This document shows positions 19,273-57,717 of a stretch of 64,000 nt of DNA, piece by piece. The notes beneath the pieces were generated by a model. The model ran no database searches. It had not been told where the DNA came from and saw only the letters and a program-made list of their open reading frames with translations. This DNA comes from Clostridia bacterium. Lineage in GTDB: Bacteria; Bacillota; Clostridia; UMGS1810. The stretch lies in NCBI GenBank assembly GCA_017436905.1, contig JAFSCF010000014.1, positions 1-64,000 of the forward strand, read 5' to 3'. The position numbers and the translations under genes were made by a program. Within the stretch, counting starts at the first letter, position 1. The number at the start of each line of letters is the position of its first letter.

Positions 19273-20067
19273 TTATTGTATTATCCATTCACTGCTTGAA
19301 ATGTTTTCTTCCTTACATAACGGATTTAAAGATGTTAAACTTTCAAATGAAATTACTCTTATTTCGTCAATATCTCCGCTAAGGGTGGTTGTTTGTCCTG
19401 CAGAATTATATTGACATTTTTTAAAATCTGCCATCTTTCCGCCTTTGTAACCGCAAATAAATATTTTACAACTTTCATCCATATCATACATATTTGTTTT
19501 TACTGTATATGTATTTCCGCTTTTAGTAACAATTGACGAGGTGGATGAATTTCTTTTCCTCCAATGTGCGTATAGTGTAATATCTTCAGTTGCGGTAACA
19601 ATTGTATCACTTTCTATTTTAGTTCCATCGGTAGCAGAGGTATACCATCCGTCAAAAACATATCCGCTTCTTGTTGGAATCGGCAATGTTCCGTAAGGAT
19701 TGCTGAACTGCACCTTTTTATTTACAAACAAATACTCGTTTTCATTATATATAGAAACAGTATTACTGCTTTCGTCATACAAAACATAGTCTCCTACAGA
19801 AACATTTTCTTCAATCCAATATTGAGCATTTCGATTTCCTGAAAGAATAAATCCACCCGAAGGAACAGTAGCATTCCCAACACGTACTATAACTTCTTGT
19901 ACTTGGTTGTTTGAATCAACAAGCGCTTCTGTACCATAAATATTTGTTCCCGTACTGCTTCCACCCTGATTAAATATTACTAATTGGTCTACCCCTCTAA
20001 TTCCGTTTATGCTATTAACGGAATAACTTGTTTTAGAAACTGCATTTATTGTTTTACCATTAGATTC
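19273..20067 (-). pseudogene. 3' portion of the CHAP protein gene in the -1 frame (InlB-like repeat and C-terminal module)
   Basis: A continuous 264-codon frame with no start of its own, joined in the -1 frame to the upstream CHAP gene. It encodes a beta-sandwich-like module (GIRGVDQLVIFNQGGSSTG ... VPSGGFILSGNRNA ... VSVGDYVLYDE), similar to N-terminal modules of some secreted glycosidases. Next come one InlB/Flg_new repeat (PTRSGYVFDGWYTSATDG ... ITLYAHW) and a C-terminal module with GDIDEIRVISFESL, of a kind common in clostridial surface proteins. A restart at TTG/ATG near 19782 lacks a good ribosome binding site. I read it as the tail of the 20046-21416 gene, lost by frameshift or reached by programmed frameshifting. 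Confidence 0.75.
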
Positions 20068-21416
20068 AAATTTACAGACAGCAAAGATGGTAAATCAAGT
20101 TTATTAACCGAAAAAACTTGATTTGCTCCGGAATTAAGTTTCCACAACTGCAAATTATCTCCATCATTTCCTGAGCCGCTTATATCTAAAGCATAATCAC
20201 ATACTTTGGAAGTCAAAACCATTCCGTCTACAGGACCATTTAACCACCAATCCTGATTTTCAGAACTTTCTTTTTTACGGAATTCGACATTTGCTCCATT
20301 TCCTGTTCCATCTGCGTGTAAATATGTAGAAGTACTTAATGATTTTATTTTGTAACTATCATCTTTATTTTTCTCAAATAAATATTTTTGATTTTGAGAA
20401 TCTAAAAAAACATTCAAAACAGCATTTTCATTATTATTTGTTACACAAAGATTTTCATAATATGGCGATATCATTGTAGCATAAAAATTTGTTCCTATGT
20501 CAACTCCTGAAATTTCATCTATTTTTTTGATTTCAAATTGCTGGTTTACAGTTGAATTTTTAACCCATAGTTGAACATTATCTCCGTTATTTCCATATCC
20601 GCTTATATCAAGTACATTTTCGCTTTCTTTCGATGTAATTATATATGCTCCGTTTTGCTTACTCAAATTCCATCTTTGGCTATCAGAATTGTCTTCTACT
20701 TGTGTACAAATATTTGCGCCTTTTGTTGTTCCCGAAGTATCTAAACATTGTTTATCACTTCTATTTGTAATCTTGTAATTACCATCCGTATCTCTTGAAA
20801 AATGCCAAATCTGATTTTTTCCACCAGAATAATTTTTCATTAGAACATTAGAACTTATGTTCGTAACATACAAATCATCATAATGAGGCGACATAATATA
20901 GGCATCAAAATCATCACCGATATTTAAATAAGAATTGGTAACCAAATCTTTTATATGTATAAATCCTGTAATACTTGATGCTAATACTCTTCTTTCACTA
21001 TATTCCCCCGTTAATTTTTGATTATACTCGTCTATTATAACATAATTTCCTTCTATTGCCTTCACCCATGCCACATGACAAGATGACCACCAGGCAACAG
21101 AACCAATAGCAGGTACATTATCAACTGCAATACCAAGTTTTTTAGCAACTGCCCCCCATTCATTTGCATTACCCCATCTTGCAACACCGCCATATTGATT
21201 TGTAAAACTCACTCCATTCCGACTATTTAAACACCATGCAACAAATGACGTACATTCTCTGTTATAAAAATTCCACTCATCGACAACGTCATCTAACGGT
21301 AATTTTTTATATTTTTCTGGATAATCATCGCCTGTGTTATATGCGCTAACTGAACTAACACAAAACATTGATAACAGAATTGTCAATACAATCAATACAC
21401 TTAAAAACCTCTTCAT
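20046..21416 (-). CDS. Secreted CHAP-domain hydrolase with ricin-type lectin repeats (frame-broken)
   Basis: A signal peptide (MKRFLSVLIVLTILLSMFCV) precedes a CHAP amidase/peptidase domain (about 35-145) with the catalytic cysteine in NRECTSFVAWCLNS and a histidine in SSCHVAWVKAIEG. Two ricin-B-like lectin modules follow (about 155-300 and 305-445), with QIWHF, QRWNL and NGDNVQLW-type repeats. It probably cleaves peptidoglycan or attaches to glycans outside the cell. I start at 21416, where GGGGGT lies seven bases upstream; the reading from 21494 would begin inside the leader hairpins. The frame ends at 20046, but coding continues in the -1 frame to 19273, giving 714 aa if joined. The segment is more AT-rich than its neighbours. 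Confidence 0.85.
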   Translation of the reverse strand: MKRFLSVLIVLTILLSMFCVSSVSAYNTGDDYPEKYKKLPLDDVVDEWNFYNRECTSFVAWCLNSRNGVSFTNQYGGVARWGNANEWGAVAKKLGIAVDNVPAIGSVAWWSSCHVAWVKAIEGNYVIIDEYNQKLTGEYSERRVLASSITGFIHIKDLVTNSYLNIGDDFDAYIMSPHYDDLYVTNISSNVLMKNYSGGKNQIWHFSRDTDGNYKITNRSDKQCLDTSGTTKGANICTQVEDNSDSQRWNLSKQNGAYIITSKESENVLDISGYGNNGDNVQLWVKNSTVNQQFEIKKIDEISGVDIGTNFYATMISPYYENLCVTNNNENAVLNVFLDSQNQKYLFEKNKDDSYKIKSLSTSTYLHADGTGNGANVEFRKKESSENQDWWLNGPVDGMVLTSKVCDYALDISGSGNDGDNLQLWKLNSGANQVFSVNKLDLPSLLSVNLNLMVKQ

Positions 21417-21435
21417 TTTTTTACCCCCTAAAATT

Positions 21436-21472
21436 AAAAAAGTGCACCAACCGAAGTCGGTGCACAAAAAAA
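21436..21472 (-). terminator. Terminator inside the CHAP leader, upstream of its start codon
   Basis: Stem GTGCACCGAC / GTTGGTGCAC closed by a TTCG tetraloop (21442-21465), then TTTTTT. It precedes the start codon by about 20 nt and so would act as an attenuator. Confidence 0.85.
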
Positions 21473-21473
21473 C

Positions 21474-21644
21474 GCAAACTCCGGTTGCTGTCACACAAAC
21501 TTAATTAGAACGGGGTATAATTTCGTACTCTAACTAATGGAATTTGCATTTTTATGTAAATTCAAAGTTAAAGTACAAAAAGGCGCAGTTATCCCTATAA
21601 AATAGAAAAACCCCTCATTTTTTATTAAATTAAGTTTATGTGAC
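21474..21644 (-). ncRNA. Structured 5' leader (candidate riboswitch/attenuator) of the CHAP gene
   Basis: A leader of about 170 nt between the promoter and the terminator. P1 pairs GCAAATTCC (21539-21547) with GGAGTTTGC (21474-21482) and is itself followed by seven T residues. P2 pairs TTAGTTAGA (21529-21537) with TCTAATTAA (21501-21509). The 5' arm of P1 can instead pair with an upstream GAATTT (21558-21563), giving mutually exclusive folds. I could not match it to c-di-GMP, c-di-AMP, SAM, T-box, purine, TPP or cobalamin classes. Confidence 0.55.
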
Positions 21645-21650
21645 TTTATT

Positions 21651-21679
21651 ATTCTATCACAATCTTCAAATTTTATCAA
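21651..21679 (-). promoter_or_regulatory. Promoter of the CHAP gene
   Basis: Minus strand: TTGATA (21674-21679), 17 bp, TAGAAT (21651-21656). It implies a leader of roughly 228 nt. Confidence 0.75.
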
Positions 21680-57459: not shown

Positions 57460-57591
57460 AACCACGTAATAAGCAAGTATTTTCATTATAATTATAATGG
57501 CAGTGTATTTTTTTACTTTTTTGGTAAAAATACATGGCTTTTTTCACATTGCTATTATAATGGTATGAAAATACACTTGAATTACGTGGTT
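57460..57591. mobile_element. MITE-like 132-bp inverted-repeat element
   Basis: Perfect 11-bp ends AACCACGTAAT / ATTACGTGGTT continue as imperfect arms containing GTATTTTCAT and TATAAT, so the element folds into one long hairpin. No transposase is encoded. No clear target duplication is visible. Confidence 0.55.
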
Positions 57592-57602
57592 GTATTCAAG
57601 GT

Positions 57603-57662
57603 CATGTATTTTTCGTGCGTGGCCTTGTGCTACGCACTTTTTATTTGCGCGGAAAATACATG
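57603..57662. repeat. Nested stem-loop next to the MITE-like element
   Basis: Outer perfect stem CATGTATTTT / AAAATACATG, inner stem GTGCGTGGC / GCTACGCAC with one wobble and a 5-nt loop. Could be a small RNA or part of the same element. No T-run follows. Confidence 0.5.
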
Positions 57663-57682
57663 GCGTTACCACACAAAACCAA

Positions 57683-57717
57683 GAAAAGCGTTCAACTTTT
57701 TTTGTTGAACGCTTTTC
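57683..57717 (-). terminator. Terminator of the pgk-tpiA-gpmI operon
   Basis: A 14-bp perfect stem (GAAAAGCGTTCAAC and complement) around a T7 loop, ending in TTTTC on the minus strand. Confidence 0.85.

Follow-up and report, generated by a model that had tools for sequence, protein, structure and literature searches.

A multi-copy leader RNA of gut Clostridia with the probable character of a pseudoknot-gated transcription attenuator

A 64,000-nucleotide (nt) stretch of a Clostridia bacterium genome (contig JAFSCF010000014.1 of assembly GCA_017436905.1; hereafter the window) carries on its minus strand, at 20049..21416, a gene for a predicted secreted protein with a CHAP domain and ricin-type lectin repeats (Pfam PF05257, PF14200 and PF00652), divergent from veg and recR. 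We describe the leader RNA of this gene, which corresponds to about 21644-21417 in reverse complement, with all its features on the minus strand. It is preceded by a sigma-A type promoter, TTGATA-17-TAGAAT (21651..21679), recognized from its sequence pattern and from a −10 spacing kept in most of the family described below. The promoter puts the predicted start near 21644, where the closing helix P1 has its first base. The structured RNA extends from this predicted start G to the end of the U run of an intrinsic terminator (21436..21644), and a Shine-Dalgarno sequence AGGGGG (21424..21429) lies immediately 3' of the terminator. A preliminary description had noted a leader of roughly 228 nt with competing folds. 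Every pairing named there is present, and a chance fold is excluded because the minimum free energy (MFE) of the leader is far below that of shuffled sequences (−67.3 versus −37.8 ± 4.0 kcal/mol, z −7.3).

The leader belongs to a family of RNAs. Many partial matches came from an initial DNA search of the window's own genome and 60 related ones, and a covariance model, R2, was built from 12 aligned members; the window RNA, one of the model's own seeds, matches it with 177 bits (E 2.5e-35). Of 20 selected relatives, 19 have R2 matches, as do 49 of 196 genomes sampled from the class (34 of 132 genera). Carrier genomes often have about 10 copies, up to 14, and these numbers are lower bounds since the genomes are drafts and the filters strict. 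Among 300 genomes sampled phylum-wide, only the window's own was matched at E ≤ 1e-4, so false positives are infrequent. The exact core pattern GRCWAYYGGAGTTTGCGTTTTT was found in at least 119 stretches among genome contigs and in none of 2.9 million viral contigs. Among the matches listed (80 records), nearly all are metagenome-assembled genomes (MAGs) of Clostridia, mainly from animal guts; two records lack the MAG label, Pumilibacter intestinalis and Lachnospiraceae bacterium MD329. All 80 overlap strong R2 matches, which are full-length unless the stored stretch cuts the RNA.

In 148 of 153 members the best position for a −10-like promoter element is 6 or 7 nt upstream of the RNA's first base (exactly 6 nt in 128 of 153), and in 129 of 153 it matches TATAAT at five or more of the six positions. 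The start codon lies a median of 28.5 nt 3' of the terminator (130 of 139 distinct members with an assignable reading frame). This fixed spacing of the −10 element to P1, together with start codons close after the terminator, indicates that most copies are leaders. Some loci hold tandem RNA copies, two or three per about 600 bp and each with its own promoter and terminator (L246 (G012:C138), L247, L248, L249 and L133), and a small gene is sometimes present between or after them.

The family is absent from Rfam 15. None of its 4227 families gave a match at or above its gathering threshold within the window except tRNAs, 18 homologous loci gave no family match across the RNA, and sub-threshold scans of three members returned only implausible matches. 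The model of the ydaO riboswitch, which senses cyclic di-AMP (c-di-AMP), found no match in the scans of the window and homologous loci. These comparisons agree with the earlier statement that no known class fits. A description of the family was not found in the open-access literature, the 3161 candidates of Fremin and Bhatt (2021; PMC8040213) lying outside this search as their supplement was unreadable. Novelty is thus meant relative to Rfam 15 and the open-access literature.

Five helices were modelled: P1, P2, P4, P5 and the terminator. P1 is a 16-bp closing helix that encloses P2 and P4; its 5' arm GTCACATAAACTTAATT (21628..21644) pairs with the 3' arm AATTAAGTTTGTGTGAC (21490..21506), and 13 of the 16 pairs show two-sided changes in 72 homologues. 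P2 pairs GGGGT (21610..21614) with ACCCC (21512..21516), as also in the MFE fold, and two-sided changes were found in all eight modelled pairs; the AGGGG/ACCCC pairing proposed in the preliminary description is part of this covarying helix. P4 (GTACTTTAACT, 21566..21576, with AGTTAGAGTAC, 21525..21535) has two-sided changes in 11 of 11 pairs. The apical hairpin P5 (GAATTT...AAATTC, 21540..21563) had been put forward as an alternative fold (21563-21558 with 21545-21540), and is conserved, with 94.1% of cells paired and a median local energy of −4.4 kcal/mol over 155 members.

For the 72 long-type members, the five helices are 93.4% paired, as compared with 31-43% after displacing the partners by 1-3 columns, and 44 of the 52 modelled pairs show two-sided changes. 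Compensatory cells number 748 versus 219 expected from shuffles, and none of 500 shuffles reaches any observed measure, although these shuffles ignore the relatedness of members. Because the alignment was fitted to R2, the counts for modelled helices are biased toward it, whereas those for the pseudoknot and the antiterminator, neither of which is modelled, are free of that bias. Covariation and the existence of similar leaders elsewhere, which the preliminary description had set as a test, are both found, in the pairs just counted and in a quarter of the sampled class genomes. The closing helix, P4, the antiterminator and the existence of a family had been overlooked. Conserved letters lie mainly within the switching strands. 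Between the 5' arms of P2 and P4, long-type members often contain a small internal hairpin, P3, and a short U run (e.g., GGGTATTTTATACCCTTTTTT in L050), which looks like a weak terminator or a pause site. A reading of the RNA ends as integron attC-like (GCCAAAC...GTTTGGC) was dropped, since P1 varies to GTCACA, GCGACA and ACCACA with compensation.

Strand K5 (AAAAATGCAAATTCC, 21539..21553), for which P5 is the alternative partner, pairs with strand K3 (GGAGTTTGCGTTTTT, 21468..21482) in both subtypes. Nine bp of this pairing, GCAAATTCC (21547-21539) with GGAGTTTGC (21482-21474), followed by G and seven Ts, had been described as a stem. The pairing exists and extends to 15 bp, but the 5' arm falls within the enclosing helix and the 3' arm beyond it, which makes the pairing a pseudoknot. 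K5-K3 (AAAAAUGCAAAUUCC with GGAGUUUGCGUUUUU) is 99.1% paired in the 72 long-type members, and in 27 short-type members two-sided changes occur in 6 pairs, with a covariation score above all 500 shuffles. The pairing is worth about −18 kcal/mol before the pseudoknot penalty, while the competing P5 contributes only −4.4. A short upstream open reading frame within K5 (AUG CAA AUU ...) was rejected since homologues often carry ACG in place of the AUG, or other letters.

The intrinsic terminator (GTGCACCGAC-TTCG-GTTGGTGCAC-TTTTTT, 21436..21465) has 98.9% of cells paired and two-sided changes in 9 of 10 pairs. Two terminator-like stems had been proposed; only the TTCG hairpin (21465-21442) with its six Ts was recovered as a terminator-like site of the region (1 versus 0.0 ± 0.2 in shuffles). 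Competing with it is an antiterminator, whose 5' arm CAACCGGAGT (21478..21487) overlaps K3 and whose 3' arm ACTTCGGTTG (21448..21457) lies within the terminator hairpin. This pairing (CNAUCGGAGU with ACUUCGGUUG) shows 24 compensatory cells versus 9.4 expected, a value reached by 0 of 500 shuffles. The cognate energy is −18.0 kcal/mol compared with −14.9 kcal/mol when arms are swapped, and none of 5000 swaps was as strong. When partners were randomly re-paired among members, mean pairing was weaker in 5000 of 5000 permutations for both the pseudoknot and the antiterminator.

Because GGAG(U) belongs both to K3 and to the antiterminator's 5' half, the pseudoknot and the antiterminator are mutually exclusive, and because the 3' half of the antiterminator also belongs to the terminator, those two exclude each other as well. 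According to computed energies, the isolated tail prefers the antiterminator over the terminator in 85% of 155 members, with medians of −18.4 kcal/mol for the antiterminator duplex and −15.8 kcal/mol for the terminator hairpin. This suggests that a gate is needed for termination, since the isolated tail mostly folds as antiterminator while K5-K3 offers about −18 kcal/mol.

Comparison of the member sequences demonstrates the RNA, its helices, the pseudoknot, the antiterminator and the terminator, and their placement before a Shine-Dalgarno sequence. An intrinsic terminator stands between promoter and start codon, and a mutually exclusive antiterminator is supported by covariation, as found in transcription attenuators. 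The RNA is therefore best regarded as a probable member of a cis-acting, pseudoknot-gated transcription attenuator family. The riboswitch or attenuator architecture postulated in the preliminary description is borne out by the covarying antiterminator, the terminator and the pseudoknot, small-molecule sensing aside. Transcription would start on the first base of P1, and P1, P2 and P4 would form a rod that presents K5 near its tip. In the ON fold, K5 would be kept in P5 and the two antiterminator strands of the tail would pair, which blocks the terminator and lets RNA polymerase transcribe the gene. The OFF fold would instead join K5 to K3 in a loop-tail pseudoknot that takes the GGAG half of the antiterminator, leaving the UUCG terminator free to form and to release a transcript of about 205 nt. 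The simplest reading is that the tail is ON by default and turned OFF by pseudoknot capture of GGAG, a direction that we infer from the folds. A cell-wide signal would bias folding at about ten loci in each genome. Such a signal presumably controls which fold is adopted, and it may be a ligand and not a protein or a trans RNA.

The genes downstream are diverse. In all, 109 downstream proteins match 60 Pfam families, most commonly BspA-type leucine-rich repeats (9), AbrB/MazE-type regulators (5) and zinc ribbons (5), followed by copper amine oxidase N-terminal domains (4), DUF6809 (4), acyl-CoA ligases (3) and dockerins (3). Further products include CHAP, NlpC/P60, ricin lectin and lipoprotein-like sequences and numerous short uncharacterised proteins. 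The range is far broader than the wall hydrolases named in the preliminary description, and this breadth suggests a global cue. Two groups of paralogous small proteins, one secreted-looking and starting with MNK, the other Cys-rich with LTPG..CLGNG..CCC.ECDY, recur under separate RNA copies (L044, L048, L054 and L073 in G009; L047, L060, L064, L133, L140, L149, L254 and L259), which suggests that RNA and gene may duplicate as a unit. In the window itself, the CHAP/lectin frame stops at 20046-20049, and a 268-codon frame with a Listeria-Bacteroides repeat domain (19273-20079, minus strand) runs on directly in a different frame; the gene looks interrupted by a frameshift, either real or an assembly error.

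A second RNA copy of the short subtype is present in the window on the plus strand (57464..57642; R2 31.3 bits, fold z −8.7). It has its own promoter-like sequence, and P1, K5/K3 and the terminator are visible in its sequence; no gene lies directly downstream. Some copies of this gene-less kind are followed on their 3' side by what we call an antitail, a reverse-complement-like stretch resembling K5 and the 5' arm of P1, often GTCGCCRAAC, and next by a terminator-like hairpin (window 57464-57700, plus strand; L248, L250-L253, L046, L074 and L077). Within 170 nt 3' of the terminator, 12 of 41 gene-less copies versus 0 of 110 copies with a gene have a sequence strongly complementary to the consensus tail (z < −3), though a few of these 12 are evidently a neighbouring tandem RNA or a weak match. 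In clear cases (e.g., L248, L250, L252, L046 and L077), GTCGCC(A/G)AAC is directly followed by a terminator-like hairpin, sometimes that of a convergent gene. The antitail of the second window copy, GTTACCACACAAAACC, provides a 16-nt perfect complement to the tail of another copy in the same genome (G000:C7:52522). In five genomes, WWGTCGCCRAACAA sites outside an RNA all lie in such antitails, except one after a spoVAE-like gene. A tail-like TTGTTTGGCGACAATCAGAGAGAATGCATTT stands directly 3' of a spoVAE-like gene (L268, 1500-1540), and neither a P1 5' arm nor a terminator is close by.

Three observations weigh against the proposed cis-acting, pseudoknot-gated attenuator. The K5 and K3 letters are nearly invariant in the long subtype, where the pairing rests on its consistency and on the short subtype; there is no obvious conserved unpaired ligand pocket; and 41 of 151 copies lack a recognisable gene directly downstream, which a purely cis-acting regulator leaves unexplained. 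That gene-less quarter, the promoter and terminator on nearly every unit, the tandem copies and the protection of the 5' end by P1 would suit a multi-copy trans-acting small RNA, with the downstream gene read by leakage. We consider this unlikely, since a Shine-Dalgarno sequence and start codon directly follow most copies and a covarying antiterminator would be purposeless in a simple small RNA. Dispersed copies, tandem units and inverted-repeat antitails at some loci could also point to a mobile or repeat element that copies itself and has no regulatory role. This is very improbable: most copies sit between promoter and Shine-Dalgarno sequence, and they have diverged strongly yet kept their pairing. 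A phage or mobile origin is likewise unsupported, as the core pattern occurs in 0 viral contigs and no transposase or integrase family is among the 25 Pfam families commonest downstream.

For the attenuator itself, the identity of what tips the fold can be weighed in two ways. A classical metabolite riboswitch, in which P1-P5 and the pseudoknot bind one small molecule or second messenger, would explain the coupling of a loop-tail pseudoknot to an antiterminator, and one RNA over many unrelated genes is expected of a signalling ligand; no Rfam class matches, however, and the conserved letters, concentrated in the switching strands, do not outline an evident pocket. From sequence evidence we place this possibility just short of an even chance. 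Cyclic-dinucleotide control had been suggested, and its cyclic di-GMP (c-di-GMP) part is not supported: c-di-GMP is an unlikely ligand and was rejected because no GGDEF domain was found in carriers G007 (97% complete, 12 copies) and G008 (93%, 2 copies) or in the window's own genome, G000 (89%). A DAC domain, which indicates c-di-AMP, is present in 14 of 14 well-completed carriers and in none of the proteins of the window's own genome (89% complete); being common in any case, the domain is uninformative here. Alternatively, a protein or trans RNA acting on P1-P5 or on a switching strand may tip the choice. The conserved complementary strands are open to invasion by such factors, and the antitails are complementary to family tails, but no partner gene is linked to the RNA; we regard this as possible, if somewhat doubtful. 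Dependence on the antiterminator LoaP was rejected, as the tested carriers had no protein exceeding the NF033641 cut-off and gave only weaker matches of NusG-like type. A more far-reaching idea is a global RNA regulon in which one signal acts through about ten pseudoknot-gated copies per cell to switch dozens of accessory and surface genes that are unrelated to one another, while some gene-less copies yield longer transcripts with antitails that bind other copies by their tails, in mutual trans regulation. This is speculative and, as a whole, rather improbable.

The proposed attenuator shares features with several known systems. PreQ1-I and fluoride riboswitches are loop-tail pseudoknot aptamers of a few dozen nt with transcriptional platforms. 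As in these, the pseudoknot's tail overlaps an expression-platform strand, and its formation would decide between terminator and antiterminator. In contrast, the leader here is about 205 nt long, with the 16-bp closing helix, P2 and P4 placing about 55 nt between the loop strand and its tail partner, and it has no sequence or covariance-model match to them. C-di-GMP-I/II riboswitches also occur in many copies per genome and control diverse genes, many of them surface-associated. The present family is likewise a multi-copy leader over diverse, often surface-linked genes, but differs by the missing Rfam match and by carriers (G007 and G008) without a GGDEF protein. T-boxes are multi-copy leaders of Bacillota that choose between terminator and antiterminator, as this family probably does; unlike T-boxes, it gives no T-box match in Rfam scans, lacks an association with amino-acid genes and uses simple strand pairing as antiterminator. 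Narunsky et al. (2024; PMC11109978) describe trpB and similar riboswitch candidates, orphan leaders that combine an intrinsic terminator with a proposed antiterminator and are each linked to genes of a particular type. The family resembles them in being an orphan leader with these elements and differs in not being bound to one gene type; the trpB model gives 20.7 bits on a short-type member, under its 59-bit threshold. The 3161 candidate structured RNAs of the human microbiome, some of them cis-acting (Fremin and Bhatt, 2021), are similar in being uncharacterised structured RNAs of gut bacteria, and they may overlap with this family.

This RNA occurs in roughly one in four of the genomes sampled from the class, often with ten or more copies, and Rfam 15 nevertheless lacks it. 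Judged from the sequences, it seems to decide the read-out of many unrelated genes in gut Clostridia. If the proposed mechanism is true, the cell-surface proteins, wall hydrolases and small accessory proteins under its control would make up a large regulon of gut Clostridia that has stayed hidden. The signal of the RNA, once found, would reveal a cell-wide cue in poorly cultured bacteria of the animal gut.
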